Made by a program: the position numbers and the translations under genes
The notes under the pieces: generated by a model
What the model was told of the DNA's origin: nothing
What the model saw: only the letters and a program-made list of their open reading frames with translations
The model's database searches: none
DNA from: a virus
Reading direction: 5' to 3' (one strand)
IMG/VR virus record: IMGVR_UViG_3300044701_002419
Coordinates: 1-29,813 of that record
Length of the DNA stretch: 29,813 bases
Shown: one piece after another, positions 5,262-27,108 of the stretch
Numbering within the stretch: position 1 is the first letter of the stretch
Layout of the letters: every line of letters starts with the position of its first letter

Positions 5262-5572
5262 TCCTCATCCTCCATCTCGGCGTCTTCCTTGTACGCCTCT
5301 TCCTCCACCTCTTCCATCTCGTCCTCGTCCTCCAGCAGGGCGAGTTCAGCCTTGAGGGAGGCGATTTTAGCCTGCAGTCGCGCAATCCGCTCGGCCTTGG
5401 AGGTCGTCATCGTCGGCGCGTCCTCCTCTTCGGCCTCCGGCTTGGCCTTCGGCGCGGACTTGGGCGCTCCAATCGCAATCATGACCGCCATACCGGGCTT
5501 CCGCTTCATCATCGGCTTGCGCCCCTCCATCTTCCGGGCGACCGCCTCCATCCCACGCAGCTTCTCTGGCAT
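5258..5572 (-). CDS. Acidic coiled-coil protein, 104 aa
   Basis: The N-terminal third is basic (RKMEGRKPMMKRKPGMAV), the centre is a Lys/Pro/Ala linker, and residues about 58-82 form a heptad helix (KAERIARLQAKIASLKAELALL). A Glu/Asp-rich tail (EEVEEEAYKEDAEMEDEE) follows. It lies directly after the large terminase (TAATG overlap), where scaffold-like or packaging-accessory proteins occur, but no family assignment is possible. A scaffold or terminase cofactor role is a guess from charge pattern and location. Confidence 0.7.
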   Translation of the reverse strand: MPEKLRGMEAVARKMEGRKPMMKRKPGMAVMIAIGAPKSAPKAKPEAEEEDAPTMTTSKAERIARLQAKIASLKAELALLEDEDEMEEVEEEAYKEDAEMEDEE

Positions 5573-6888
5573 TACCAGCCCTCCAAGGGCAGTTGTTTCG
5601 CAAAGTTTCCGGTTGTGACCCCAAGGCGCACCAGTTCGTCCGGTGCCATCACCGCCGTCGGGTCATCCCCAGCCGACCGTGGCAGCGGCATCGCCTCTGG
5701 CACCACCCCTTGCACCCTATCCCAGCCGTATAACGCCAACCCGAGCGCCATCACCCCGTCGTCATGCAGTCCCTTGGGGGCTTCGTAGCGTACACCGGTC
5801 GCCGTGTAGGTGAACTCGAACGCTTCCAGCTCCGATACCAGCCATCCGTCGGGGATATGCAGCTCATTCCCCTGAAAACTCGCAATCAGGCGCTGCATCA
5901 GCCGCAGTTTGCTGGGTTGGGTGAACACATGCGGGGTCACCACGACCCCCATCCCCTGCAAATCTGCGACAATCGCGTCGCCAACGCCCGTGGCGTCCGC
6001 CACCACCGGCGTAGACCCCACTAACGCCGCGATTTTGCTCTTCGTCGCAGCCCACGGTAGCTGCCAGCGCTCTAAAACCGCTACTTTGCGCCACGCATCC
6101 AGCCCAATCACGACGGTAAAGTCCGCCGAACGGGCCAAATCGACCCCGTAGACGACGGCAGGCTGGTCCGACAGGGTGCCCACCGACTTGCGAATCGCCT
6201 CCAACCCGAACGGGTTGGCCCCATCGTCGGTCGGGATACCCTCAAACTCCTGCTGGAAGACCTCGGGCGGCAACTCGCGTCGCGCTGCCTCGACTTCCTC
6301 CGCCGGGATGTACGGGTTGTCCAGTGTACTGGCCCGAAAGCTGGCCCAATCCGGGTCATCGCCCCGCTCGCCCCGCGCAAACAGCACCACAAACCCGTGC
6401 CGACGCCCCTTGGGCGTCCCCAGAATCAGCGCTCGACCCGACAGGTCCACCAGCGTCGGGCGAATGGCGGCCTGAAAAATCTCCAACAGGTCGCGCACAA
6501 TGCCCGCTTCGTCAATCACGGCGCGGGCGTACTTACGACCACGGGCCGGGTCCGGGCTGTCCAGCGTCCAGACCTCAATCACGCCCCCCGTGACAAGTTC
6601 CAGTCGCTTGTCTTGCTCGCTTACACGAGAGGTAATCGGCTGCAAACGCTCCAGCAGTTCGCGCCACGCCTCCAGCGCCAGCTTGTAGCTGGGGGCGAAC
6701 CACGCCACCGGCTCTCCCGCAATCGCCCCGTCGCACAGCCACCGAATCCCTAGCGCCGACTTCCCGTAGCGGCGTCCGCACATGACCACTCGGAACCGGG
6801 CGGGATGTTCCGCGACCCGTTTCTGGCCCGGATGCAGCTTGTGCAGCCGGACGCTGACCTCGGATGGCTTGGACTTGGACGCGGCCAC
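5572..6888 (-). CDS. terL: Terminase large subunit
   Basis: ATP-driven motor that packages phage DNA into the prohead and cuts it. The ATPase half has Walker A CGRRYGKSALG (residues 37-47), Walker B VIDEAG with Asp126-Glu127, and the coupling motif LGTPKG (156-161). The nuclease half has the RNase H-like acidic residues: Asp250 in YGVDLARSADFTVVIGLD, Asp298 in VVADATGVGD and Asp376/377 in LHDDGVMALGLAL. At 438 aa it is near normal length and looks intact. The start is GTG at 6888, supported by AGGAG four bases upstream. It is the first long gene of its operon, behind the AT-rich island at 7060-7226. Confidence 0.95.
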   Translation of the reverse strand: MAASKSKPSEVSVRLHKLHPGQKRVAEHPARFRVVMCGRRYGKSALGIRWLCDGAIAGEPVAWFAPSYKLALEAWRELLERLQPITSRVSEQDKRLELVTGGVIEVWTLDSPDPARGRKYARAVIDEAGIVRDLLEIFQAAIRPTLVDLSGRALILGTPKGRRHGFVVLFARGERGDDPDWASFRASTLDNPYIPAEEVEAARRELPPEVFQQEFEGIPTDDGANPFGLEAIRKSVGTLSDQPAVVYGVDLARSADFTVVIGLDAWRKVAVLERWQLPWAATKSKIAALVGSTPVVADATGVGDAIVADLQGMGVVVTPHVFTQPSKLRLMQRLIASFQGNELHIPDGWLVSELEAFEFTYTATGVRYEAPKGLHDDGVMALGLALYGWDRVQGVVPEAMPLPRSAGDDPTAVMAPDELVRLGVTTGNFAKQLPLEGW

Positions 6889-7285: not shown

Positions 7286-7771
7286 TTAGAGCAAATCAGC
7301 GGGTAGTTCCGTGCCTGCCTGCAGCACACCCGCCACCGCGCTGGCTTTCAGCGCCTGCACGTTCTTCACGGGGCGCTCCTCCTCAATCACCTTGACTTGC
7401 AGCGTCTGCTGCCCCTGATGCTCGACCGTCTGGCGCTCCCCGTAGTCTGCCGGAGCGCTCTTCGCCGCCGCCCACTTCAGCGTTTCGACCAGCAGTCGGT
7501 CGGCGGCGCTCGCCGCATTGGTCGTATTCCGCGCCACGAGCACCGCCTCCTCCGCAAACGCTGCGCCCAACAAGGGACGCATGCGCTGGTACCGGGTGTA
7601 CGCCGCCTCGTCCTCCCCGAGCCACTTGCGCACCGTACCGGGGCGGAGGCCGAGTTCCCGCGCTACGTCCGCGACGGTCTTCCCGTTGGCCATCCCGTCA
7701 AACACCGCCTCGAATACCGCGCTGCGCGGCATCTCCGTGTCCTGCTTTTTCTTGGCTGGCATGCTAGACAT
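7286..7771 (-). CDS. terS: Terminase small subunit
   Basis: DNA-recognition subunit of the packaging terminase. From ATG at 7771 (MSSMPAKKKQ) the 161-aa protein has a helix-turn-helix (residues about 31-52, KTVADVARELGLRPGTVRKW). It then shows the block typical of one small-terminase family: long helices AFAEEAVLVARNTTNAASAADRLLVETLKW, then APADYGERQTVEHQG and a beta-strand tail. An upstream extension of the frame to 8110 is rejected because it has the Arg/Pro/Ala composition of non-coding GC-rich DNA. A second ATG three codons later is also possible. A terminator follows; the large subunit is the next gene. Confidence 0.88.
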   Translation of the reverse strand: MSSMPAKKKQDTEMPRSAVFEAVFDGMANGKTVADVARELGLRPGTVRKWLGEDEAAYTRYQRMRPLLGAAFAEEAVLVARNTTNAASAADRLLVETLKWAAAKSAPADYGERQTVEHQGQQTLQVKVIEEERPVKNVQALKASAVAGVLQAGTELPADLL

Positions 7772-8188
7772 GCTACGCTTGACTTGTACCACTCGCAACT
7801 GGCCGTGACGGGGTGGTATATCCGCTGCGAGCGGCACGCGGGCGCATACCCCCCTCCCTCGCCGCGTCACGCGCCGTGCGCACGGTGCGCGTTCCATCCC
7901 CTCGCAGCTTGCCACCGCTGCGAGCTGCGAAAGCGCCGTAAGTCGCTGCGGCGTCGTGACTTGCGCCCTCGCAGCGTCGCAGGGCCGCTGCGCCGTATGA
8001 GACGCGCACGGGCGAGGGCCACGCGGCCCGAACCGCGCCACCACATCAACCGCCGCGCCCCCTCGCTTTCGTCGCACGTCGTCGCATGCTAAGTCGCTGA
8101 TATTCAACAACTTGCGCTGACGTTGTACATGTCAATGCATGCGTGTATCTTTCTGACGTGCCGCCACTTCGGCGTCACGTTCACCTAT
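7772..8188. promoter_or_regulatory. Divergent control region between terS and the plus-strand operon
   Basis: About 420 bp without a credible gene. It holds a perfect 12-bp palindrome CCGTGCGCACGG (7874-7885) and an 8-bp stem inverted repeat CTCGCAGC/GCTGCGAG with an 8-nt loop (7901-7924). Several more CTCGCAG or CTGCGAG words lie between 7815 and 7985. Promoters for the leftward terS and rightward accessory operons must lie here or nearby. Only one weak plus-strand candidate could be picked out (8123-8151). Confidence 0.5.
8123..8151 (+). promoter_or_regulatory. Weak candidate promoter of the plus-strand operon
   Basis: TTGTAC (8123-8128), a 17-bp spacer and TATCTT (8146-8151) match a sigma70-type promoter at 3/6 and 4/6 positions. 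The position, 64 nt before the first start codon, is sensible, but the match is weak. Confidence 0.3.
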
Positions 8189-8214
8189 TGCCCCACTGGG
8201 GCAGGAGAGTCAGC
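8189..8214 (+). promoter_or_regulatory. Hairpin-Shine-Dalgarno leader, copy 1
   Basis: TGCCCC-ACT-GGGGCA (8189-8203) forms a 6-bp stem with a 3-nt loop, and AGGAG (8203-8207) follows at once, 7 nt before ATG 8215. A near-identical element precedes the next gene at 8584-8601. The hairpin base touches the ribosome-binding site, so it could control translation. Confidence 0.6.
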
Positions 8215-8508
8215 ATGTCCAAGAGCACCAAGAGCACCAAGAGCAGCAAGCAGGGCGGCCGTGTCATCATCGAGATGTCGGAGCACCAGTGGGCGCAGAT
8301 GTGCGAAGCGCTCTGGCATGCGCGATGCTTGGCGCTCTACGCGGTCGAAGAGGGAATGGACGAGTCGGAGCGGTTCTATCCGAGCATGACGGCGAAGCGG
8401 CGCGTGAAGCATGCGTGGACCACCCTCAAGGCGGTCTACGCCGCAGAGAAGACCGCCGACACGTCCGCGCTCTGGAAGGGGTGCCGCAAGCGTCCCAGCC
8501 GCTCGTGA
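8215..8508 (+). CDS. Small hypothetical protein, 97 aa, first gene of the AAA+/VWA operon
   Basis: Unrecognised. The N-terminus is Ser/Thr/Lys-rich (MSKSTKSTKSSKQGGR), followed by a compact helical domain (EMSEHQWAQMCEALWHARCLALYAVEEGM) and a basic end (KGCRKRPSRS). ATG 8215 is chosen over the upstream frame start at 8143 because AGGAG sits 7 nt before it and because the next gene has the same leader and a similar opening. It precedes the MoxR-type ATPase by 102 nt. It may be a substrate or adaptor of that ATPase, by operon context only. Confidence 0.7.
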   Translation: MSKSTKSTKSSKQGGRVIIEMSEHQWAQMCEALWHARCLALYAVEEGMDESERFYPSMTAKRRVKHAWTTLKAVYAAEKTADTSALWKGCRKRPSRS

Positions 8509-8559
8509 AGCGCCCCGCAGTGTCTCGCAGTCTCGCAGTGCCAGCAGTACCCAACCCAC

Positions 8560-8610
8560 GGGGTCGCGATGCGACCCCACAACGCCCCACAGGGGCAGGA
8601 GAGTAGCACA
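8560..8610 (+). promoter_or_regulatory. Tandem hairpin leader of the AAA+ ATPase gene
   Basis: Two hairpins in series: GGGGTCGC-GAT-GCGACCCC (8560-8578, perfect 8-bp stem) and GCCCC-ACA-GGGGC (8584-8596). The second abuts AGGAG (8597-8601), which lies 9 nt before ATG 8611. No T-run follows the first stem, so it is not a standard terminator. It could be an RNA-processing, stabilising or translation-control element. Confidence 0.6.
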
Positions 8611-10140
8611 ATGTCCAGCACCAAGAGCAGCACCCCGTTCCGCGTCGGCCAGCGCATCCGGACCACCAGCAGCGCCCCGACGTTCGCAGTCACGCCGTGC
8701 GACGCGGACGGCACCCCGCAGGAGCACGAGGGAACGTCCAGCATCAAGGCGAACGGCTGCTACGCCGACGTGCTCGTCGCAGGAGGTAACACGGTCGACG
8801 TGATTCTGTACGTCCCCCGCGACGGGAAGCTGGAGCGGTTCCTCGCTCGGTACTGCGACCCCAAGCGCTTCGAGTCGGTGCGTGGGAAGCCGATGCTGCC
8901 GGGCATCGACGACCGACGCCGGGGCAGCAGCGAGGCGACGACGGCAGCCCCTCGCAGTGCGAAGACTGCAAGCGACCCCGATGTCGACGCGCTGCTGGGG
9001 TCGCTGCGCGACGCGCTGACGGCGAAGACGGGCGGCATCGACGAGGACGCCGTGCGGTCGCTCGTCGACGGCATGCTCGACCCGCTGCGCAACGGCATCA
9101 CCGACGCCGTCGAAGCCGCCGACGCCATCGACGAGCGGCTCTCGTCGCGATGCGACTCGCTGGGGTCGAATATCTCGGACTTGCGGGGACGGCTGGAGGC
9201 GGTGTCGCATGCCTTGCACACGGCGACCCCGGCAACCCGTGCGAGGGTGCGAGTCGCACTGGCCGCAGGAAGCGACCCGAACCCCATCGTCGAGGCACTG
9301 GGCAAGTTCTACACGCCGGGCGAAGAGGCCCCCGCGAACGTGCTGCTCTGCTCGCCGCCGTCGCTGGGCAAGTCGTACGGGGTGCGCACGTTCGCCGCAG
9401 CGTACGACGCCTATCTGGAGCACGGCTGTAGCGATGACATGGACGAAATCGCGACGCTGCTGGGCTCCCCGATGCCCGACGGGAAGGGCGGCTTTATCAC
9501 CGTCGACGGCGTCCTGACACAAGCCGTTCGCACGGCGTCGCAGGGGAAGAACGTGCTGCTGCTGCTCGACGAGGTGCTGCGACTGGCACCGCGAGCGCAG
9601 GAGTGGCTGCTCTCGTTCCTGACGGGCGTGAAGCGGCCCGACGGGACGCGCTGCTACCGACTGCGTACCCGGCGCGTCGACGCCGACGGGGCACTGGAAG
9701 TGCTGGAGTGCGACGCCGCTCGACTGCACCTCGTCGGCGCGACGAATCTCGGCATGTTGCAGCCCGTCGAGGCGTTCTGGTCACGCTGGGAAACGGTGCG
9801 GCTCGACTTCACTCCGGCTACGGTGCAAGCGGTCGCAGCGGCCATCCTCGCAGCGCACGGCATCCCCGACAGCGGCGACGTGCTGGCCAAGGCGTGGGCG
9901 CAGATTGTCACCGAGTCTCGCAGTGCCGTCGCAGAGGGGAAGCTGCGATTCCCGGTCGACATGCGCATGCTGGAGCGTGCCGCGCAGTTCGCAGAGACGC
10001 CGTCGGTCGCAGCCGTCGGGAAGTGGGCAGCCGACCGCCTCGCAGATAACACGGCGCACTGGAACGCTGACTTGGGCGACACCGACCCGCAGTCGGTCGC
10101 CGTGTGCGACGGCTGGACTTCGATGCTTCGCAGCCTCTGA
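8611..10140 (+). CDS. MoxR/CobS-type AAA+ ATPase
   Basis: A 509-aa ATPase. Residues 1-100 form a separate beta-rich N-terminal part, and about 122-215 are helical. The AAA+ core follows: a degenerate Walker A SPPSLGKS (248-255, first Gly replaced), Walker B LLLLDE (316-321), sensor-1 ATN (377-379) and a probable arginine finger in FWSRWETVRLDF (about 392). MoxR/CobS ATPases work with VWA-domain partners to remodel or load metal into target proteins; the next gene encodes such a partner. The ATG at 8611 is fixed by AGGAG 9 nt upstream and by similarity to the preceding gene's start; the 14-codon upstream extension lies in the hairpin leader. Its substrate in the phage is unknown. Confidence 0.85.
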   Translation: MSSTKSSTPFRVGQRIRTTSSAPTFAVTPCDADGTPQEHEGTSSIKANGCYADVLVAGGNTVDVILYVPRDGKLERFLARYCDPKRFESVRGKPMLPGIDDRRRGSSEATTAAPRSAKTASDPDVDALLGSLRDALTAKTGGIDEDAVRSLVDGMLDPLRNGITDAVEAADAIDERLSSRCDSLGSNISDLRGRLEAVSHALHTATPATRARVRVALAAGSDPNPIVEALGKFYTPGEEAPANVLLCSPPSLGKSYGVRTFAAAYDAYLEHGCSDDMDEIATLLGSPMPDGKGGFITVDGVLTQAVRTASQGKNVLLLLDEVLRLAPRAQEWLLSFLTGVKRPDGTRCYRLRTRRVDADGALEVLECDAARLHLVGATNLGMLQPVEAFWSRWETVRLDFTPATVQAVAAAILAAHGIPDSGDVLAKAWAQIVTESRSAVAEGKLRFPVDMRMLERAAQFAETPSVAAVGKWAADRLADNTAHWNADLGDTDPQSVAVCDGWTSMLRSL

Positions 10141-10175
10141 TTCTCACTCACTCACACCGACAGGAGCAACGCAAC

Positions 10176-11834
10176 ATGTCCACGAGCACGAGCACCACGA
10201 GCAGCACGAGCAGCACGGCACCACGAGCGAAGACGCCCGACTGGCGGACGGTATTCAACATGGCGCGGAAGCCGGGCGGCCAGCTGCTCGACTTGGCGAC
10301 ACGCACCGGGGAGCGGGTCAAGTTCCAGAACGTGCCGTGCGGTGGCACGGCGTCGTGGCGCTGGGATGCGACGAGCCGCAAGCGGGGACACAAGCCCGGC
10401 GAGCACGTCGTGAACCTCGACCCGATGTTCACACTGACTCTCGACCGGGTGCCGAAGCCGTCACGCAAGCGGCGGCTGGCGTACGGCACGGCGCTGCTGC
10501 GGCACGAGAAGTGGCACGGCCTCGTGACGGCGCGCGACCTCGACGAGTTGGCGAAGGAAGCCGACAAGCTGGGGGTGCCGTTCTCGCTGCTGAACCTCTG
10601 CGAAGACTTGCGAATCGAGCACAAGGCACGGGTCGCAGAGGGCGACTGCTTCATGTGGTGCGAGTACAATCTGCACCCGCTGCGCATCGCCTCGTCGCGC
10701 AGCGAGCCGCTCGCATGGCTGGCAGCGTATATCCGCGCCGAGTGCAGCACCCGCTCCGATGGCACCAGACTCATCGACGGGTACTGGAACGGCGAGCCCA
10801 TGACGGCGCGAGTGCGCAGCGGTGTCAGTGAGGCGAGCAAGCCGACCGAGGACGTGCTGCGCACGTTCGCGCAGGAGTTCGCCAACGCTGGCACGACGTG
10901 GGACGTGCTGCGACTGGCGAAGGATTGGATGGACACGTTCCCGACGGCGAAGCAGAATCCGCAGGACGTGCCCGGCATGCCGTCGCGGTACGGCGCAGGG
11001 TACACGCCCTCCAACAAGGGCACCGGGTCGACGGGGACGCCGATGGACTACGACGGCAAGCCGTTCGACACGGTCGACCCGTCGAAGCTGCCGCCCGTCG
11101 AGCAGCGACGGCTGGAGTTCTTCCTCGACCGCAGCCTCGACACGCTGCGACTGTCGGACGACGAGTTCGCACGTCGCGCCGGGCACAAGCTGCCGGACAT
11201 GTCGCAGAGTCGTGGCATCGCTCGACGGCTGGCGCAGATGCTCGGCAGCGTCGACTCGGCACGGGTGCGCACGGCGACCAGCGGCAGCCGGGTGCATGTG
11301 CGAGGCGTCATGACGGGCGACCCGTCCAGCTTCCGGCAAGCCGAGCAGCGCGGCGGCAAGCGGCGCGTGGTCGCCGTCTTCGACCAGTCGGGCAGCATGC
11401 AGGGTGACTGGCGGCGGCACGGCGCAGCGTTCGCAGCCGCGCTGCTGCTACTGCATCGGCAGGGGGTGCTCGACGTGCAGCTGATTCTCACGGGCGGTCG
11501 CAGCCACTGCGTGGTGCCGCCGACGCTGAACCCGTCGCTGCTGGGGCGGTTCCCGTGCCAGATGGGCTGCGAGTCGGTCGATGCGACGCTGGGCGCACAC
11601 AAGGCCGCGCTGCAAGCGGCTGACACGGTGCTCATCTACACCGACGGCAACCTCACCGACGGCGACGTGGATGCGGGGCGGTGGCGTTCGCTGGGCGTCG
11701 ACTTGGTCGGCTGCGCGGTCGGCAATCGGCACACGCACGACTCCCTCGTGCGGCACTTCTCGCGGGGCATCACGGCCGACACCGGGGCGCAGCTGGCCAC
11801 CCGCATCGTGCAGTACATCGCGACCCGCAAGTAA
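10176..11834 (+). CDS. CobT-like VWA protein with HExxH segment
   Basis: A 552-aa probable partner of the upstream AAA+ ATPase. The N-terminus is Ser/Thr-rich. Residues 110-114 are HEKWH, a zincin-type HExxH, followed about 30 residues on by NLCEDLRIEHK with Glu143 and Glu148 as possible third ligands. A linker region (about 255-310) precedes a C-terminal VWA domain with a metal-ion-dependent adhesion site, DQSGSM (403-408), and Asp490 in IYTDGNLTDG. The family is known for VWA/AAA+ pairs such as CobT/CobS; metallopeptidase activity is an inference from the motif. ATG 10176 has AGGAG 9 bases upstream; the longer frame from 10104 is rejected because it overlaps the ATPase gene. Confidence 0.85.
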   Translation: MSTSTSTTSSTSSTAPRAKTPDWRTVFNMARKPGGQLLDLATRTGERVKFQNVPCGGTASWRWDATSRKRGHKPGEHVVNLDPMFTLTLDRVPKPSRKRRLAYGTALLRHEKWHGLVTARDLDELAKEADKLGVPFSLLNLCEDLRIEHKARVAEGDCFMWCEYNLHPLRIASSRSEPLAWLAAYIRAECSTRSDGTRLIDGYWNGEPMTARVRSGVSEASKPTEDVLRTFAQEFANAGTTWDVLRLAKDWMDTFPTAKQNPQDVPGMPSRYGAGYTPSNKGTGSTGTPMDYDGKPFDTVDPSKLPPVEQRRLEFFLDRSLDTLRLSDDEFARRAGHKLPDMSQSRGIARRLAQMLGSVDSARVRTATSGSRVHVRGVMTGDPSSFRQAEQRGGKRRVVAVFDQSGSMQGDWRRHGAAFAAALLLLHRQGVLDVQLILTGGRSHCVVPPTLNPSLLGRFPCQMGCESVDATLGAHKAALQAADTVLIYTDGNLTDGDVDAGRWRSLGVDLVGCAVGNRHTHDSLVRHFSRGITADTGAQLATRIVQYIATRK

Positions 11835-11846
11835 CCCACTCACACA

Positions 11847-11864
11847 CAGGAGACTGCGAACATG
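11847..11864 (+). promoter_or_regulatory. Repeated translation start CAGGAGACTGCGAACATG, copy 1
   Basis: This 18-nt block including the start codon recurs exactly at 12058-12075 and is preceded in both cases by a CTCACAC stretch. It contains the AGGAG Shine-Dalgarno. Confidence 0.75.
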
Positions 11865-12041
11865 CAAGCCATGCCAGAACGCTGCGCCTACTGCGGCGCA
11901 CCCGCGACCACACTGCGCCGCGAACACTACGAGGCGCAGGGAGGTGGCATCGTGTGCGAAGCGAACGCCGTGTGCGAATCGTGCGCGGCAGCCGAGCGGG
12001 TGCGCGACGCGAAGCTGGAGTTGCTGGGACTGCTGAAGTAA
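11862..12041 (+). CDS. Cys-rich zinc-ribbon miniprotein, 59 aa
   Basis: A short gene identified by reading the DNA from ATG 11862, placed by a strong AGGAG. The product has a four-cysteine pattern for one zinc ion: CAYC near residue 8, then after about 30 residues C..C in VCESC, with extra Cys in IVCEANAV. A charged helix (AAAERVRDAKLELLGLLK) ends it. Such zinc ribbons often mediate protein or nucleic-acid contacts. It lies 27 nt after the VWA gene and is probably co-transcribed with it. Confidence 0.75.
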   Translation: MQAMPERCAYCGAPATTLRREHYEAQGGGIVCEANAVCESCAAAERVRDAKLELLGLLK

Positions 12042-12057
12042 CCCTCACACCTACAGA

Positions 12058-12075
12058 CAGGAGACTGCGAACATG
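12058..12075 (+). promoter_or_regulatory. Repeated translation start CAGGAGACTGCGAACATG, copy 2
   Basis: Exact second copy of the block at 11847-11864, here starting the 72-aa gene. Confidence 0.75.
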
Positions 12076-12291
12076 ACACCGAAGCACACCGCCGACCAGC
12101 TGCGTCGCAAGTACGGCGCAGCCCTCGCGAAGCAGAAAGCCGGGCACCGACTGCGACTGGCCGACGCCCGGCTCGACTTGGCTCGCATGCACCCGACGCG
12201 CCCCGTGTGGGAGGAGTTCGGCGCGTGGACCCGCATCGTGTACTGGCGCAGCGTGTACGCCGCGCTGCTGCGAGAGGAGGGCGTCGCATGA
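12073..12291 (+). CDS. Small basic helical protein, 72 aa
   Basis: Unrecognised. The sequence is basic and predicted helical throughout (TADQLRRKYGAALAKQKAGHRLRLADARLDLARM), with a Trp/Tyr-rich second half (WEEFGAWTRIVYWRSVYAALL). The start is fixed by the repeated leader AGGAGACTGCGAAC. Its stop overlaps the next start as ATGA, so the two are probably translationally coupled. Function unknown; it belongs to the AAA+/VWA operon. Confidence 0.7.
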   Translation: MTPKHTADQLRRKYGAALAKQKAGHRLRLADARLDLARMHPTRPVWEEFGAWTRIVYWRSVYAALLREEGVA

Positions 12292-12659
12292 AGAGTTACG
12301 ACGTGCATTTCAATGGACCCGGCGGCCGTCGCTGGGTGGCGTGTGTTCGTGCGAAGGGATGGCAGCAAGCCTATGCGTGGGCGGTCCAGTCGTGGCCACT
12401 CGCGCCCGTCGGGTCGCTGGAGGTGGGCGCAGCGACCCCGGCGCATGCACGACGGCGTCCGGGGTTCTCGCAGGAGGGCGTCGCACTGCGAGCCGCCATG
12501 CTGGCGCAGTCCCCGGAAGCACGGGCGAAGCGCGACGCGACACGCGCTGCGCATCGCGAAGCGGTCAGCCAGCGGACGCCGGGGCAGCAGAAGTGGTGGG
12601 ATAATAAGCGCCGACGTGAGCAGGGCGCAAAAGGCAACGGCCCTCAGGGCGAACCATGA
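12288..12659 (+). CDS. Small basic protein, 123 aa, last firm gene of the plus-strand operon
   Basis: The N-terminal half is compact (KSYDVHFNGPGGRRWVACVRAKGWQQAYAWAVQSWPLAP-like), and the C-terminal half is highly basic and Arg/Ala/Gln-rich (KRDATRAAHREAVSQRTPGQ, then WWDNKRRREQG), consistent with nucleic-acid binding. The start ATG 12288 overlaps the upstream TGA (ATGA), and GAGAGGAGG lies just before it. No family is recognised. It ends 60 nt before convergent minus-strand genes. Confidence 0.65.
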   Translation: MKSYDVHFNGPGGRRWVACVRAKGWQQAYAWAVQSWPLAPVGSLEVGAATPAHARRRPGFSQEGVALRAAMLAQSPEARAKRDATRAAHREAVSQRTPGQQKWWDNKRRREQGAKGNGPQGEP

Positions 12660-13366: not shown

Positions 13367-15106
13367 TCAAATCCTCCCGCTGCGAGTCAGTCGCCCGTGA
13401 ATCTTTTCCTGCTCGTCAATCGTGGGGGTGCGGGGCAGCAAGCGCAAGGTGCGATAGTCCCAGCGAATCGGGATGTCGGCCAGCGACCCGTGCCGGTTCT
13501 TGTCCATGATGAGCCACGAATCCGCTTGCAATCCGTTGCGCACCATGCGGGAGTGGTCGAGCAGCAGCACTTGATGGCTGTCGTTTTCGATGGCGCTGCC
13601 GCCCATCAGGCCTTGCGAAACGGGACGCTCCGAGCGAGCGGCCGAAGTCTGGCGGTTGAACTGCGAGAGGCCGATGAGCGTGACGTTCAGCGACTGCGCC
13701 GTGTCGCGCAGCGTGTGCGCCACCAACTCCATGCGGTCGTGGATGCTGTGCGTGTTCGCCGTCCACGCCAGCTGCAAGTAGTCGACGATGAAGTACCGGG
13801 AGCCATGCACCTCGGCGTGATACTTGATGAGCGCCGTGACATCAGCCAAGCGCGAAAGCGGTCGGCGGTTGACCAGCACATGCCCACCCGTGCGCTCGCG
13901 CACCGCGTCCAGCGACTCCGCAGCCTTCGCATAGCTGGCTTGCGAGAAGTGTGCGCCCTGCTCCAGCTCGACCACGGGCACGTCGCTGACGATAGACAGC
14001 AAGCGCGTCGCCAACTCCGAGCGCCCCATCTCCAGCGACACGAACGTCACGACCTCGCCGTGCTGGATAGCAGAGGCGGCAAGGTTCAGTGCGAAGAGCG
14101 ACTTGCCGCTGCCCGTGTTCGCCCCGACCGTAATGAACCAGCCTCGCGCAATCCCGATGCCGCCGCCCCCGCCGTGGCAGAGCGTGTTCCACCCCGGCAG
14201 CGGGGTCGGCACGGCGTCAATCGGGGCCAGCTTCTCATCCAGAATCTGCGAGAGGGTCGTGCCCGTGATGCTATCGAACTGCATCGCCGGAGCCTCCGCC
14301 CCGATAGGCGTCGCCCGGTCACGCAGCGCTTGCCAAATCGCAGCGAACTCGTCGTCGTCTGGCACCCGCTGGTGCAAGTCGCACAAATCTTTGACGATGC
14401 TGCCCTCATACTCGACCTCGCGAATCACCCGCGCCTTCGCGATGTCCTTTGCCACGGCAGCCACCAGCGTCGCCCCGCCCTCGTCCGGCTCCTGCCACAC
14501 GAACACGTCGCGGTCGCGCAGCAGTGCCGCATACTCGGTGCGCCACTGCGACGCGCCCGGCAAGCCGACCACGCACATGCCGCGCTGCCACCCCGCGTGA
14601 CAGTCGGACTCGCCCTCGACGATGAGCACGGGGGCCGTGCGCGAGGAAGCGGCCAGCACGTCCTGCCCATAGAGCGGTGTCCCCACCCCGTCCGTATCCC
14701 AGAACGTGCCCGTGCGGGTGCGCAGCTTCGTGCGAATCGTGCCACCCTCGGCGTTGCGATACGGGATAGCGAGGATGGGGTCGCCGTACTTGCCTACTCG
14801 CTCGACCACCCCGGCCGCGTCGAGCGTCGACCGCAGCAGGTCTTTGCGCTCGCCGTACTCGGCCAGCGTCAGCCCCTTGCTGCGGTCGTCGGGCAGCGTC
14901 ACGCCCAACTCGTCGCCCAACGTGCGCAGTGGCTCCGTAAACCCACACGCACTGCATCCCCACGCATGCTCGCCCAGCCACGCGCTGGCCGTGCTATCGC
15001 TGTGTCTCGGGCAGCGAAACGCGATGCTCTTCCCGCTCTTCTTCGCTGCGTAGCTGCCGCGCAGCAGCGCCGTCGCCAGTACTCCCCTCGTGTCCATCTG
15101 TTGCAT
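13367..15106 (-). CDS. Primase-helicase (T7 gp4-like)
   Basis: A 579-aa fused replication enzyme that unwinds DNA and probably primes the lagging strand. The N-terminal zinc-binding domain is CPRH (32-35) with CSAC (51-54). TOPRIM motifs follow: VLIVEGESD (160-168) and VFVWQEPDEGG (201-211). The RecA-like helicase domain has Walker A GANTGSGKS (328-336), a second-strand motif TFVSLEM (354-360), Walker B FIVDYLQL (439-446) and LIGLSQFNRQ (477-486). ATG 15106 is preceded by GGAGAGGAG about 9 nt upstream; the frame extends 20 codons further, into the microprotein gene. Other replisome genes flank it; no DNA polymerase is visible in the window. Confidence 0.92.
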   Translation of the reverse strand: MQQMDTRGVLATALLRGSYAAKKSGKSIAFRCPRHSDSTASAWLGEHAWGCSACGFTEPLRTLGDELGVTLPDDRSKGLTLAEYGERKDLLRSTLDAAGVVERVGKYGDPILAIPYRNAEGGTIRTKLRTRTGTFWDTDGVGTPLYGQDVLAASSRTAPVLIVEGESDCHAGWQRGMCVVGLPGASQWRTEYAALLRDRDVFVWQEPDEGGATLVAAVAKDIAKARVIREVEYEGSIVKDLCDLHQRVPDDDEFAAIWQALRDRATPIGAEAPAMQFDSITGTTLSQILDEKLAPIDAVPTPLPGWNTLCHGGGGGIGIARGWFITVGANTGSGKSLFALNLAASAIQHGEVVTFVSLEMGRSELATRLLSIVSDVPVVELEQGAHFSQASYAKAAESLDAVRERTGGHVLVNRRPLSRLADVTALIKYHAEVHGSRYFIVDYLQLAWTANTHSIHDRMELVAHTLRDTAQSLNVTLIGLSQFNRQTSAARSERPVSQGLMGGSAIENDSHQVLLLDHSRMVRNGLQADSWLIMDKNRHGSLADIPIRWDYRTLRLLPRTPTIDEQEKIHGRLTRSGRI

Positions 15107-15209
15107 CGGTTCCGTCTCCTCTCCCGGTGAATATGATGTCCCATCTGGCAGCGAACGTCGCGGCATTTACCGCGAGCGGTCGTTGGACACTGCCCTTACC
15201 GTTAGCCAT
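14994..15209 (-). CDS. KGSxQRP microprotein, 71 aa, overlapping the primase start
   Basis: The opening MANGKGSVQRP, then NAATFAARWDIIF, matches a small phage protein I recognise by its pattern KGSxxRP followed by an F...WDxIF-type segment; its function is not established. The domain is over by about residue 32. The remaining 40 residues are charged and lie in the region that encodes the primase N-terminus in another frame (14994-15106), so they may be incidental. The ATG at 15209 overlaps the upstream stop by 8 nt (ATGGCTAA). Confidence 0.65.
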   Translation of the reverse strand: MANGKGSVQRPLAVNAATFAARWDIIFTGRGDGTDATDGHEGSTGDGAAARQLRSEEEREEHRVSLPETQR

Positions 15210-21354: not shown

Positions 21355-21674
21355 TCCCCCTCCAAGCGCCCTTCGAGGTGCGCCATGCGAGACGTGGTAT
21401 CGCGAATCAGGTTGTAGATGTGGCCGATGTCCTCGCGCATGTGGCCGAAGTCCTTGCTGACCTCGTTGCGCAGCAGGCTGATGTCCCGCTCCATCGCTTT
21501 CACCATCCCGCGCAGCATCCCGTAGCTGACAGCGGCGCTAATGGACGCCGCCACCAACGGGATGACTAGCCCGAGGATACCGACGGGGTCGCTGGTCGGC
21601 GTCGCGGCTTGAATCGCGGCGCTCCCAAGCCCAGAGATGACCCCAATCGACAGTGCGTATCCGGCAAGGTTCAT
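21351..21674 (-). CDS. Membrane protein with coiled-coil tail, 107 aa
   Basis: Two hydrophobic segments (residues about 4-24 and 31-54, VGILGLVIPLVAASISAAVS) are followed by a helical heptad region (MERDISLLRNEVSKDFGHMREDIGHIYNLI). This arrangement occurs in phage lysis cassettes, as holin-like or spanin-assisting proteins, and in ejection proteins. ATG 21674 overlaps the upstream stop (ATGA). It is the first small gene after the 1561-aa virion protein. Exact role unresolved between second holin, antiholin and accessory ejection protein. Confidence 0.65.
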   Translation of the reverse strand: MNLAGYALSIGVISGLGSAAIQAATPTSDPVGILGLVIPLVAASISAAVSYGMLRGMVKAMERDISLLRNEVSKDFGHMREDIGHIYNLIRDTTSRMAHLEGRLEGE

Positions 21675-24600
21675 CGCTTCCTCTCCGGTCGACGAATCCC
21701 TCGCGCTTCCATCTCGTAAGTGCTGAACCGGCGCTCGTCCTCAACCATACTCTTAATCAAGTCTCGCTTGGTGTCTTCGTCTGCAGAGAGATAGTACGAC
21801 GACGTGAAGAGCTGCTGCAGTGACTGCCGCACCCGCTTCCCGGCGTCGCGCTGACGGGTCTGGTACTGTTCAATCGGTTCGTTCTTCCAGCGAGCCATCG
21901 GTCCAATCTCCACGCCCATCCGGGACACCTCGGCCAGCGTCGGGTCAGCGCGGCGCAGGTCGCCAAAGGCAAACCCAATCTCCGACCCGTAGCGCATCGG
22001 CTCCCCGAAGACGTTCAGCCGTGCCGGAACACTGCGAGACAGGCCCGGCACTCGCGCTGCAATCGCCTGCCCAATCGTCTCCGGACGGCGCACCACATCG
22101 TCCGTCATGCGCGTCGCTTGTGCCAACGCGGACGGAACGAACGACCCCGCCTGACTGCGAAGGAAGCGCTCGGACTCCTTGATACCGCCCGTCACCGCTT
22201 CCAGCGCCTCCTTCGGCCCGGTCACCATCGGCTGGTTCAGCATCCCCTTCGCCGTGGCCGTTGCGAAGTACGGCGCAAGGCTGCCCAAATCATCCGGGAT
22301 GTCCTCGCGCTCGGCGTTCTGTTTCATCGCCGCCGCCATCGTGAGTACGGCACCAAGCGGCGCAATCTGTCCAACGGGCAGCCACTGCCCACCCAGCAGG
22401 AGCGAGTTCGGCTTGCGACCCTCGGCCGCCCACTGCTCGCGCCCCGCCTCGTCGTCCGGCAGTTCGCCGGTCAGGATGCCACGCTCGTAGAGATACCAGC
22501 CCAGCCCAAAAAGGCCGATGCCAAGTCCCTGCGACATCAGCGTCTCAATCATGCGACGCTGCTCGTTGCGCACCGCTGCGAGCGTCTCCTTGGGCACCTC
22601 GCCAGCGAGCTTCTCGTCTGCCGCCTGCTGTATCAGCTTTGTCCAGTTCGCCAGTCGCTTGGCCCCAATCCCGAGGCCAACCCCCGGCGTCGCTTCGGCC
22701 AAGCGCGTCATGATGTTGGCCGGGGTGCGGCGGAACGGGAGCAGGGTGTTCAGCGCCGCTTCGACCTCGGCACCAGCTCCGATACCCTTCTGGGCATAGC
22801 GACCAGCAATCCCGACCGCACCAGACAGCGCCTCGGCCAGCGCCCCCTCGTTCGTGAACGTCAGGCGCTCCGACTGTGCAATCGCTTCGGCCACCATCTC
22901 ATCCGTCGGAGACTTCAGCAGCTGCTGGACACGGTTGTCAAAGGCGTTACCACGCAACCCCTCGCGGGTCGCCTGTATTCTGGCGGCTTCGTCATACGCG
23001 CCACGGTATGCCATAGCACGGAACACACGGTCACTGGCTCCCGACAGACGCATGACGTACTTCTGATAAAAGTCTGCCATCGCATTAGCGCGGGGCATGT
23101 GCGGGAACAACGACGTGATGTTCACCTGCTGCGGCACGTCCATGCGGCGCAGGAAGTCCGGGTCCAGCTCGGCCTGCCGCACAAACTCAGCAAGGTTCTT
23201 GAACTGTCCGCGTTTGACATACTCCAAGCCCAGCATGTTCACGGCATCGCGCAGGCCGTTCTTGGCCCCCTCGCCCATCGCCCGGAACTCCTGCGCCCGT
23301 GGCATCGCCATCGTGCGGAACTGCTCCGGCCTCATGCCAACGCGCCCGCCCACATAGCGAGAGAGTACCGCGTCCGTTGCAGCGCCGCCAGCAGCTCGCA
23401 GCAGCGGCTGCACGATGACGCTGTTGCCGGTCGACAGCACGTCACGAGCGCGGCCAGCGAGGCCGGTGAGCAACCCGGCACGGCGCATCTGCGCCACCTG
23501 CCCCAGCCACGAGGTCTGTCGCAGCGACGCGATATACTGCAGCAGCTCCTTGCGCCCCGGCTCGCCCTTGTTCAGCAGGTTGGTGATGCGCATGCGCTGC
23601 TCCTGCGTCAGCATCTCCGCGCCCTTGACGCGCTCTGCCTTGAGCAGCCAGTAGGTCGGGTCGCTCGTCAGGTTCGCAAGGATTTTGTTGGCGTTCAGCG
23701 CCTGCGCCTGCGCCTTCCGCCCCGCCATAATCGTAGTCAGCAGCGCGGCGTTCTGTTTGTCGAGGTCATCAATCTGGTCGAGCAGCGCGTTCTTGCCTGC
23801 CACATCCGTCGGCTCCAGCGCCTTCAGGGCGTCAAGGTTGCGGCCAATCACCTCGGTGTTCTCTCGCACCAGCGAGGCAATCGCCAGCCCCTGCGCCCCG
23901 GTCATGTTCTTGGGCGCGATGCCTGCAAGGTTTTCGCGCTGCGTGTTGAGCAAGCGGGCCGCCTCACGCGACTCCTCCTGCCACGACTTGCGCGGCCCCA
24001 TGTTCGCACGAATCTCCGCAATACGCGGAGCCAGCCGGTCCTGCAGCGACGGCTCCAAGTTCATACGCTGCAACAAGTTCCGGTCTTGGTCGACAATCGC
24101 CTCCGCCGTCGGTGTCAGGGGCTGCCCAGCCCGAGACGCCATCTGCGCGTCAGGGATAGGCATGCCGCGCTTAACGCCCCGCACCGAGACACCCTCCACC
24201 GTCCCTGCCGTCGCAGCAAACGGATTGCGAGGGCTGAACGCAGATGCCTTCCCTGCCCGCGTTGCGATGCTTTCCAGCGCCTCGTTAAAACGCTCGGGGG
24301 CCACGTCGCCCGCCCGGCGCAGCAAGGACGCCCCACCCGTTGCACCAGCGCCAAGCAGCGCACCGGCCAGCGCCATGCCGGGGATGTCCTCCGGCTTCTC
24401 GGCGGCCGCTGCACCACCAATGCCGCCCAGCGCTGTTCCGCCAAGGGTGCTCGCCAGCGTTCGCAGCAGCGCCGGGTCGACCGCACCCAGCCGGTTGCGC
24501 AAACGCATCATCTCGCGCTCGCTAGCCCGGCGACCGGGTGCGCCAGCCTCCCGTGCAGCCCGGCGCTCGGCCTCATCAAGCGGCACAGGCGGCATCTCGG

Positions 24601-26356
24601 CCGCCAACTCCGGCCTCGGGCGCTCGCCAATGCGAGACGACAGGAGCGACGGCCGCTCCCGGCCACGGGCCACGCCCTCGCTCAGCTCCTGCATCGCAGT
24701 GTTGAGTTCGTCGAGGAACGCCTCGGCCTCGAACCGGGCGGGGTGGTTCTTGCTGCGCTTGAGCGCCGCCGAAACCGTGACTTCGCGCCCCGTCTGCGGG
24801 TTAATAAGCACAATCTGGTCGAGCGGCGTCTGCGCCATCTCGACAATGGCCTTGCGCCACCCGGACTCCATCGCCTCCAGTTGTCGCCCACGCCCCTCGC
24901 GCTGCATCGCCTCAATAAACTGGCCGCGCTCGGCCTCGGGCAGCTTATACCACGCCTCCATCGCCGCCAGCTGCCGCAGCGCACGGGTCTGCGCCCGGAG
25001 CATCGCCTTCGGGCCGACCTCGGTGGCGTCCGGCATCAAGCCCTGCGCCTTCCGAGACTCATAGTAGGTCATGAACGTCTCGAACTGACGCTGCTCCTGC
25101 TCCGACAGCTCGTCCCACGGCTTGCGCATCTCGTCCAAGAAACCGATGCGAGACTGCAGCTCACGCGCCTGCCGCTGCTGGCCCATGCGAGCCAGCTGCG
25201 ACGCCCGCTCGTCGAGCGCCTCCTGCAGGGAGCGCCGGGGAATCGGCGGCGGCGGGGGCCGGAAGCTCGGGCTACCCGGAAACCGGGACGGCTCCTCCTC
25301 CAGCGCCCGAATCCTCGCCGCACTCTCGGCTTCCCATGACGCCTGCCGGGCAGCAATCGCCTCGTCGAGGCTCTGCGCGTCTCGCAGCTGCTGCTCTGCG
25401 AGCGCCTCCCGCTCCTCGGCCACCGTCCGGGTGCGGAAGCGCGGGCTTTCCGGGGGGAACTTGGGGGCTGGCAGTGCCTTAGGGGGCTCAGGCGACACCG
25501 GAGCGCCCGGCTCCAGTCGCCGGACGGGCAGTTCGGTAGCCAGCGGCTCGCCGGTTCGTGCCCGACGGACTTGTGCAATCCCTTCAGTCAGCTCTCGTGC
25601 CCGTTCGGTTGCCGTAGGTGGCACCGGAGCACCAGCCGGAAGCGCTCGCAGGTAGAATGGGCTTGCCGTCGGCTCGCCAGTGCGAGCGCTGCGAACGGCG
25701 GCCAAGTCTTCGGTCAGGCGCTGCTCTGGGGTCGCCGGACGGCCGCCCCGAATCCTGCGAACGCCCGCCGCGCCAGTCCGCCCAACCACCCGAGCGGCCT
25801 GTCCAATCAGCTCGCCGCCCAGAATGTCGGTGGCCGCACGGCCAAGCGGGTTCTCGGCAATCCGCTGCGCGGCTGCCTGTGTCTTTTCCATCCCCGCCAT
25901 CCCAGCCCCGGTCGCTGCCAATCCTGCCAGCGACTCCTCGGGCCGCGAGGCCAGCGACTCAGCAAGGCCCAGCGTAGCGGCGGCATACGGCCCACCCAGC
26001 GCCGTGGCTGCGCCATAGCGTACAACCGCACCGCCAAGGCCAAGCCCAAGCGAGGTCTTTGGATAGTCCTCGCTCAGCCGCCGCCCTTCCTCCCGGTAGA
26101 CGCGCTCCACCTGTTCCATGCGCTGGCGCGGCGACTCCCCGCGAGCGGGGGCCGCGCCGGGAGAACCGGCAAACGCCATCCCTTCGACCACCGTTCGTGC
26201 CAGCGGTCCAAGGGTCGTCTCTAGCGCACCGGCAACGCGGCCGAGCAGGCCACGATTCTCTTCCTCTTCTTCCTGCTTGGGCGCAAACGGATTGTTTGGA
26301 GAGTACGAGCTACTGCGTGGAGCAAACGGATTCGTTGGCCGGTAGGGTGAAGTCAT
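21671..26356 (-). CDS. Large polyvalent/internal virion protein, 1561 aa
   Basis: A very long late protein probably packaged in and ejected from the virion. The N-terminus has NPFAP motifs (YRPTNPFAPRS, YSPNNPFAPKQ) and Gly/Ala-rich hydrophobic stretches. A duplicated segment follows (LTEDLAAVRSARTGEP... and LTEGIAQVRRARTGEP...), then long charged coiled coil. The C-terminal third carries LPFRRTPANIMTRLAEATPG near residue 1205 and a hydrophobic segment (GLGIGLFGLGWYLYERG) near 1280, resembling LPD38-type domains of large polyvalent proteins. No transglycosylase or protease motif was found. ATG 26356 overlaps the upstream stop (TAATG). It may help form the ejection channel or act in the infected cell. 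Confidence 0.75.
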   Translation of the reverse strand: MTSPYRPTNPFAPRSSSYSPNNPFAPKQEEEEENRGLLGRVAGALETTLGPLARTVVEGMAFAGSPGAAPARGESPRQRMEQVERVYREEGRRLSEDYPKTSLGLGLGGAVVRYGAATALGGPYAAATLGLAESLASRPEESLAGLAATGAGMAGMEKTQAAAQRIAENPLGRAATDILGGELIGQAARVVGRTGAAGVRRIRGGRPATPEQRLTEDLAAVRSARTGEPTASPFYLRALPAGAPVPPTATERARELTEGIAQVRRARTGEPLATELPVRRLEPGAPVSPEPPKALPAPKFPPESPRFRTRTVAEEREALAEQQLRDAQSLDEAIAARQASWEAESAARIRALEEEPSRFPGSPSFRPPPPPIPRRSLQEALDERASQLARMGQQRQARELQSRIGFLDEMRKPWDELSEQEQRQFETFMTYYESRKAQGLMPDATEVGPKAMLRAQTRALRQLAAMEAWYKLPEAERGQFIEAMQREGRGRQLEAMESGWRKAIVEMAQTPLDQIVLINPQTGREVTVSAALKRSKNHPARFEAEAFLDELNTAMQELSEGVARGRERPSLLSSRIGERPRPELAAEMPPVPLDEAERRAAREAGAPGRRASEREMMRLRNRLGAVDPALLRTLASTLGGTALGGIGGAAAAEKPEDIPGMALAGALLGAGATGGASLLRRAGDVAPERFNEALESIATRAGKASAFSPRNPFAATAGTVEGVSVRGVKRGMPIPDAQMASRAGQPLTPTAEAIVDQDRNLLQRMNLEPSLQDRLAPRIAEIRANMGPRKSWQEESREAARLLNTQRENLAGIAPKNMTGAQGLAIASLVRENTEVIGRNLDALKALEPTDVAGKNALLDQIDDLDKQNAALLTTIMAGRKAQAQALNANKILANLTSDPTYWLLKAERVKGAEMLTQEQRMRITNLLNKGEPGRKELLQYIASLRQTSWLGQVAQMRRAGLLTGLAGRARDVLSTGNSVIVQPLLRAAGGAATDAVLSRYVGGRVGMRPEQFRTMAMPRAQEFRAMGEGAKNGLRDAVNMLGLEYVKRGQFKNLAEFVRQAELDPDFLRRMDVPQQVNITSLFPHMPRANAMADFYQKYVMRLSGASDRVFRAMAYRGAYDEAARIQATREGLRGNAFDNRVQQLLKSPTDEMVAEAIAQSERLTFTNEGALAEALSGAVGIAGRYAQKGIGAGAEVEAALNTLLPFRRTPANIMTRLAEATPGVGLGIGAKRLANWTKLIQQAADEKLAGEVPKETLAAVRNEQRRMIETLMSQGLGIGLFGLGWYLYERGILTGELPDDEAGREQWAAEGRKPNSLLLGGQWLPVGQIAPLGAVLTMAAAMKQNAEREDIPDDLGSLAPYFATATAKGMLNQPMVTGPKEALEAVTGGIKESERFLRSQAGSFVPSALAQATRMTDDVVRRPETIGQAIAARVPGLSRSVPARLNVFGEPMRYGSEIGFAFGDLRRADPTLAEVSRMGVEIGPMARWKNEPIEQYQTRQRDAGKRVRQSLQQLFTSSYYLSADEDTKRDLIKSMVEDERRFSTYEMEARGIRRPERKR

Positions 26357-27108
26357 TAGGGCATTTCCTGACGAACCTTACGGGAAGCCTCTTCTTCGCT
26401 CATGCCGCTATTCACAAGCTCTTCCCAACGGTCGGCACGTTGAGCGTCCGTGTACATACTAGCGCCAGCAGGTTGACTGCGCGGCACGGGCCTAAACGAA
26501 CTATCTGCCGGAACGGGCCGGTTGCCAGCGGCCCTCACGCGACCCGACTGCCGCTGCTGCTCCGCCTCATACATCCCCGCCATTAACTCACGCGGGTCTT
26601 GCCGGGGGTTGCCGCGCCGCAGGCGGTCGAACGTTTCGGTCATACGCACGGCCGCCGCCTTCTCTTCCGGGGAGTTCGCCTGCGCTGCGAGCGTCGCGTT
26701 CCACCACGCCTCGGCGCTAGACAGGCGCTGCTGCGCCTTTTGCGCGTCACCGGGGCTGAGCTGGCGCGGCGCTGCGCTGCCACCAGCTTTCCTCTTTAAC
26801 TCTAACTCGGCTTCCGCATTGGCAACCCTGCGCCCTTCAAGGGCCAGCCTTGCGTTCTCACGCTCTTCGTCGGCCTTTCGCTGCGCATCTGCGATAGCCT
26901 TCGCCGCCGGGCCAAAGCGCTCCTCAAACTCCTTGGTCTGCAGGTCAAACTGCGACTGTGCCAGCGCATCACGCACCCTCTGCCGCTCCATCTCAGCCTT
27001 CCGCGCTTCTTCTTCGCGCTGCTGCCGCTGGTACTGCGCATACCCCTGCGCCCCACCGGCGACACCAGAGAGCGCGGCCTGCAGGGCGGTCATCAGTCCT
27101 CGTGCCAT
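26356..27108 (-). CDS. Internal virion-type protein, 250 aa
   Basis: The N-terminus has a glycine-rich amphipathic stretch (GLMTALQAALSGVAGGAQGY) then a long charged helix (RQQREEEARKAEMERQRVRD), the opening common in small ejection or internal virion proteins of short-tailed phages. More coiled coil follows, then a disordered Pro/Arg region and a C-terminal helix that looks UBA-like (RADRWEELVNSGMSEEEASR). ATG 27108 overlaps the upstream stop by one base. Its place between two long virion proteins supports an ejection role; no enzyme motif is seen. Confidence 0.7.
   Translation of the reverse strand: MARGLMTALQAALSGVAGGAQGYAQYQRQQREEEARKAEMERQRVRDALAQSQFDLQTKEFEERFGPAAKAIADAQRKADEERENARLALEGRRVANAEAELELKRKAGGSAAPRQLSPGDAQKAQQRLSSAEAWWNATLAAQANSPEEKAAAVRMTETFDRLRRGNPRQDPRELMAGMYEAEQQRQSGRVRAAGNRPVPADSSFRPVPRSQPAGASMYTDAQRADRWEELVNSGMSEEEASRKVRQEMP

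Follow-up and report, generated by a model that had tools for sequence, protein, structure and literature searches.

In the group 2.2 jumbo phages, a MoxR ATPase adjoins a vWA protein with an N-terminal metallopeptidase, and a function in virion assembly and processing has been proposed for the pair (Iyer et al. 2021, PMC7824862). A study of archaeal tailed viruses described a cobST pair that is widely distributed among tailed viruses, suggested that this pair hijacks the CobN of the host and called the 'peptidase' label of the cyanophage protein mistaken (PMC8651126). The VWA protein p892 of the virus ATV stimulates the MoxR protein p618, and a role in tail development has been proposed (PMC4124505). 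A module of this kind, comprising a MoxR-type AAA+ ATPase and a VWA partner with a predicted zincin-like domain, was found at positions 8611-11834 on the plus strand of IMG/VR virus record IMGVR_UViG_3300044701_002419, a linear record of 29,813 bases analysed over its whole length (the window). The module is a divergent small-phage branch of an already known viral kind that carries conflicting names. The first-pass annotation had regarded it as its best candidate for an undescribed system; this did not hold, as the MoxR and metallopeptidase-vWA architecture was described in phages in 2021 and the viral cobS/cobT-like pair is widely annotated. What is new is the divergent small-phage branch, its fixed synteny, its strict zinc signature, a split-gene form and the contrast with cellular CobT.

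The jumbo-phage pair ASV44729.1/ASV44728.2, likened by description, has the two-gene architecture in common with the window module but derives from jumbo genomes, whereas the module was found here in contigs of 4-69 kb at a fixed, terminase-side location. ATV p618/p892 is likewise a viral MoxR-VWA pair, although no zincin domain has been reported for it and ATV is another kind of virus. Viral cobST-type pairs (PSSM2_150/phrog_459, HVTV1_57, ICP2 gp41 and that of an SSU5-type phage-plasmid) resemble the module in combining an AAA+ ATPase with an HExxH...ED..(I/L)E-VWA protein, and differ from it in a much longer acidic linker, larger genomes and a gene order in which CobT is often ahead of CobS. 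Cellular CobS/CobT also pairs a MoxR-related ATPase with a VWA partner, and the two helices that precede its VWA domain are recognisably similar. Among solved structures, NorQ/NorD and CbbQ/CbbO come closest in fold to the ATPase and VWA domain of the module; they serve metalloenzyme activation in cells, and neither NorD nor CbbO is known to us to contain an HExxH zincin domain.

Conservation of the two-gene module

The ATPase gene (8611-10140, plus strand) starts at an ATG at 8611 and encodes a MoxR/CbbQ/NorQ-type protein of 509 amino acids; the partner gene (10176-11834, plus strand) starts at an ATG at 10176 and encodes 552 amino acids. IMG/VR was searched with both proteins as queries, which yielded 75 distinct contigs after removal of duplicates. 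The VWA partner was encoded directly 3' of the ATPase, on the same strand, in all 67 contigs with room for it, the other eight ending downstream of the ATPase; some of the 67 are near-identical, so that this figure does not represent 67 independent events. The partner carried the signature HExxH...N..ED...E in 67 of 67. Recovery of 19 of these contigs with the zincin motif as query was biased for the signature, but the same signature was present in all 48 recovered through ATPase motifs alone. Comparison of the window with L002, a sister contig 96-98% identical to it in the module region, gave ratios of non-synonymous to synonymous substitution (dN/dS) of approximately 0.12 for the ATPase and 0.28 for the partner, indicating purifying selection. 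The ATPase and its zincin-VWA partner thus form a real and strongly conserved two-gene module, and the earlier view that a MoxR-type ATPase and a VWA partner with a conserved zincin-like signature most likely form one machine was supported.

The same annotation had described a six-gene operon in which small proteins serve as adaptors. This was rejected, since the four small genes are lineage-specific accessories lying outside the conserved module, and comparison of related contigs found relatives of them in L002 at most; of the proposed six-gene order only the ATPase-partner pair was kept. No relative of the 97-aa gene (8215-8508) or of the 59-aa Cys-rich gene (11862-12041) was found in any related contig, and both are missing even from L002, which lacks the regions corresponding to approximately 8240-8583 and 11855-12052 of the window. 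The 72-aa gene (12073-12291) and the 123-aa basic gene (12288-12659), whose reading frames share a four-base overlap, have relatives only in L002. All four are on the plus strand. Both gaps in L002 are flanked by repeated leaders, GCCCCAC[T/A]GGGGCAGGAGAGT and ACAGGAGACTGCGAACATG. One near-identical pair of leaders, at 8190-8210 and 8584-8604, comprises a short palindrome and AGGAG; the other, at 11846-11864 and 12057-12075, reads ACAGGAGACTGCGAACATG, and each copy stands ahead of a neighbouring gene. This arrangement suggests that the small-gene cassettes were gained or lost by recombination between the leaders.

Domains and predicted structure

All motifs listed by the first-pass annotation were present at their positions in the proteins, namely HEKWH (residues 110-114), E143, D144 and E148, DQSGSM (403-408) and YTDGNLTDG in the partner, and SPPSLGKS and LLLLDE in the ATPase. 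The partner is predicted from its sequence to be a metallopeptidase-like domain fused N-terminally to a VWA domain. The putative zincin-like domain spans residues 20-260 approximately (10233-10955, plus strand) and contains HEKWH and NLCEDLRIE (140-148). The VWA domain (11226-11831, plus strand) was assigned from a fold match together with invariant residues of the metal ion-dependent adhesion site (MIDAS), D403-S405-S407 and T489-D490.

Residues H110, E111, H114, N140, E143, D144 and E148 were identical in 54 of 54 full-length relatives at a median pairwise identity of 25%, placing the motifs far beyond chance and bearing out the expectation that HExxH would be conserved in homologues. The MIDAS residues D403, S405, S407, T489 and D490 were identical in 53 of 53. 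An AlphaFold2 model of the full partner had an overall predicted local distance difference test score (pLDDT) of 71.6, low in the linker at residues 270-337. In the N-terminal domain, three strands are followed by a helix bearing HExxH (97-117) and a second bearing ED..E (136-155), with pLDDT of approximately 87-94 in this part; such an order of strands and helices is, in the model, zincin-like, and the invariant E143, D144 and E148 on the second helix are candidate acidic third ligands. A weak match to DUF922 (E = 0.024) covered residues 43-154, and sequence searches identified no solved relative of this domain. The VWA part matched the MIDAS domain of MDN1 (VIA-align Z = 16.1) and the VWA domain of NorD (Z = 14.6). 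Seven contigs (L107-L113) have the partner split after the ATPase into two adjacent genes, one for the zincin and one for the VWA part, with variable spacing and frame, so that the zincin part constitutes a separate unit.

The ATPase was named MoxR-type by fold only, because its match to Pfam AAA_5 scored 19.7 bits against a gathering cut-off of 22 while the fold match was clear: the AlphaFold2 model (pLDDT 81) was closest to CbbQ2 (Z = 17.3) and NorQ (Z = 16.9) among structures in the PDB, over residues 215-508 approximately. In an alignment of 24 relatives, G253, K254, D320, E321, N379, R392 and R452 were invariant. Walker A was assigned to G253-K254-S255, Walker B to D320-E321 and sensor-1 to N379, with R392 as candidate arginine finger and R452 as candidate sensor-2 by position.

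Genomic position

Neighbouring genes were identified using hidden Markov models (HMMs) built from clusters of neighbours. In 43 of 67 contigs the distance between the terminase large subunit (TerL) and the ATPase was 2.3-5.9 kb. TerL and a replication gene were both present in 26 contigs, and in every one of these the module was located between the packaging and the replication side. These 26 are related by descent, so that they indicate a fixed core position rather than 26 independent placements. Four types of TerL occur near the module, with support from PHROGs for types a, b and d and weak support for c. Orientation is variable. The module runs opposite to both flanking sides in the group of the window, and is co-directional with the late genes c195-c75-TerL in around ten contigs; a large group has it running with the replication genes, usually with a cell-wall hydrolase as the next gene. 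The hydrolase (PF07486) is directly downstream of, and co-directional with, the VWA gene in L071, L075, L083-L087, L093, L094, L096, L097, L100, L101, L103 and L106.

A ParB/methyltransferase-like gene lies between TerL and the module in L026 (6006-6704, minus strand), and L023 carries an equally long gene at the corresponding position. Tyrosine-integrase genes occur near the module in L020 (7848-9167), with members of the same cluster in L019 and L022, and, identified by eye only, in L006 (6672-7826); their presence suggests that these groups are temperate. A search of 84,980 species genomes for prophage or host homologues gave no match to the ATPase motif and one weak match to the zincin motif. 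The latter, L053, is a 12.3 kb contig (JAUWRZ010000028.1) of a metagenome-assembled genome, with 24% identity, and is probably a viral contig binned with a Sulfurimonadaceae genome.

Relationship to viral and cellular CobT

With E-values computed for a nominal 20,000 sequences, the HMM of the partner family matched proteins of P-SSM2 (E = 1.3e-8), CRP-810 (1.6e-6), a phage-plasmid (5.5e-6) and ICP2 (1.7e-5), against values of 0.4 or worse for cellular CobT. The ATPase HMM gave no significant match to viral or cellular CobS. Among cultured phages, P-SSM2, S-PM2 and HVTV-1 were reached by profile only, as was Gordonia phage GMA2 in its VWA part alone (E = 0.005). No match was obtained by tblastn with four queries against 50,697 phage records, and the records of SCTP-2, Atu_ph07, ME3, GAP32, Cantare and ATV contained none to the partner profile.

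The zinc signature was read in PSSM2_150 of P-SSM2 (HEVGH...NVCEDVRIE), HVTV1_57 (HECGH...NAAEDGAIE), CRP-810 (HEAGH...NALEDIWLE), RHEph10 (HEVAH...NIVEDTMIE) and an SSU5-type Cronobacter phage-plasmid (HEVAH...NAVEDTFIE); ICP2 and Monty have HExxH. It is not universally intact in viral copies, since the CobT-like proteins of nickie (L124; SEISK) and ANB28 (L126; REVST), phages of approximately 110 kb, lack both HExxH histidines and represent natural site-dead forms. Cellular CobT works with CobN and is not matched by the family HMMs. Five such proteins were compared (Sphingomonas, Rhizobium, Cereibacter, Pandoraea and Methylobacterium; Cupriavidus and Burkholderia were left out, their N-termini not being readable in frame), and all five have HD-x-x-x-H/S in place of HExxH and [VM]E.AR.E in place of ED..E, whereas the module keeps the full signature. 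Hundreds of enterobacterial and Acinetobacter plasmids of approximately 100-115 kb match the VWA part of CobT; the sole one read, the Cronobacter JZ38 plasmid (L118), has an intact HEVAH...NAVEDTFIE and is labelled porphyrin biosynthesis.

Possible functions of the module

With a probability of about 0.5, the pair is read as a two-gene machine in which a MoxR ring and a VWA-docked zincin process a virion or packaging protein. The AAA+ protein would form a MoxR-type ring on which the partner docks through its VWA/MIDAS domain, as NorD does on NorQ in solved complexes. The N-terminal zincin of the partner would bind metal through HExxH and a third, acidic ligand from N..ED...E, and the ring would pull, remodel or expose a protein to this tethered site, which would cut it. 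The constant proximity of the module to terminase genes of several types would make a virion or packaging component, such as the portal, scaffold, or a head or tail protein, the most likely substrate. Binding of the two proteins to each other, zinc binding, cleavage and the substrate are all inferred. A literature search found no virion proteomics for such pairs. The protease or remodelling role suggested by the earlier annotation is plausible, and its gene context favours virion assembly or packaging over the host target that the annotation had also considered.

Several observations weigh against such a virion protease. Matches in the PDB for the full partner were all taken by the VWA domain, so that the zincin fold was not matched directly; no zincin was among those listed, which excludes nothing. 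A profile of the zincin-like domain alone matched nothing. Lying next to the terminase does not in itself demonstrate a virion role. Transcription of the module runs against that of the packaging genes in the lineage of the window and with that of the replication genes in the large group, and TerL was detected neither near the module of the split-gene group (L107-L113) nor near that of L006 or L067. To our knowledge, many phages need no head protease.

A published proposal for viral cobST pairs in general (PMC8651126) is that of a cobaltochelatase, in which CobS and CobT borrow the CobN of the host to boost cobalamin synthesis or to insert metal in tetrapyrroles. In its favour, the partner family shows homology to the CobT/peptidase proteins of cultured viruses (P-SSM2, CRP-810 and ICP2), and many such genes are annotated as 'cobalamin' or 'porphyrin biosynthesis'. 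For the module described here this is nevertheless highly improbable, as the zinc signature replaced in all five cellular CobT proteins is complete, Pfam CobT (PF06213) was unmatched in the window and in 24 relatives, CobN (PF02514) was absent from 22 related records and the family HMMs lack a significant match to cellular CobT or CobS. Virion assembly or maturation is favoured over cobalamin on account of the terminase-side position, the precedents of ATV and the jumbo phages, the absence of CobN and that of any S78 or ClpP-type head protease in 19 related records; both absences are weak evidence, since the records may be fragments.

An ATP-driven protease directed against host or defence proteins during takeover or counter-defence would suit the transcription of the module, which in the window is separate from that of the packaging genes and in the large group accompanies that of the replication genes; some phage zincins are thought to act on host proteins (PMC7824862). 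Genes of that type are usually patchy and fast-changing, whereas this pair has a fixed core position and a strictly conserved predicted active site, making a host target unlikely; this argument is limited by the recovery of contigs through the pair, by which related phages lacking it could have been missed. A further, rather unlikely alternative is that the pair acts as a chaperone of the MoxR-VWA type that remodels proteins, its zincin-like domain serving to bind metal or substrate without cutting, in a recognition or structural role. The scaffold can work without catalysis, since nickie (SEISK), ANB28 (REVST) and cellular CobT all lack HExxH, and the MoxR-VWA pairs of ATV, RavA-ViaA and CbbQO remodel without proteolysis. 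A purely structural zinc site would not, however, need the predicted catalytic glutamate E111, which is as invariant as the metal ligands (54 of 54).

Extended to its widest form, the virion-protease reading would make a MoxR ring with a VWA-tethered zincin the core protease for head or packaging maturation in several groups of uncultured phages. Viral CobS/CobT pairs in general would be the same machine, and cellular CobT a descendant without the zinc site; in this form the reading is possible but doubtful. In cyanophages, haloviruses, other tailed phages and hundreds of enterobacterial phage-plasmids, such pairs carry annotations for cobalamin or porphyrin synthesis, which imply a metabolic service to the host. 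If they are in fact ATP-fuelled zinc proteases, what is widely counted as an 'auxiliary metabolic gene' would instead encode a machine that processes virion or host proteins. Point mutants could test the question directly, given the strict zinc signature, its absence in the cellular CobT proteins read and the site-dead forms of nickie and ANB28.

Other genes of the window

Upstream of the plus-strand block lie TerL (5572-6888, minus strand; phrog_2, E = 4.5e-37), the syntenic anchor on the packaging side, and the terminase small subunit (TerS; 7286-7780, minus strand; phrog_1482, E = 1.5e-17), which is the nearest upstream neighbour of the block. A PDDEXK endonuclease, a primase-helicase (13367-15166; phrog_239, E = 2.5e-42), which provides the anchor on the replication side, a replication initiator and an exonuclease are encoded downstream, on the minus strand. 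All neighbours to which a name could be given are encoded on the minus strand, in agreement with the earlier observation that the block runs opposite to the other genes. Two long open reading frames on the minus strand have no relatives in related contigs; one of 1561 aa (21671-26356) gave no significant match in Pfam and one of 846 aa (27108-29648) gave none in PHROGs. Promoter and terminator scans of the window yielded nothing useful. Both GC skew and AT skew change sign between approximately 8 and 13 kb, across the plus-strand block.

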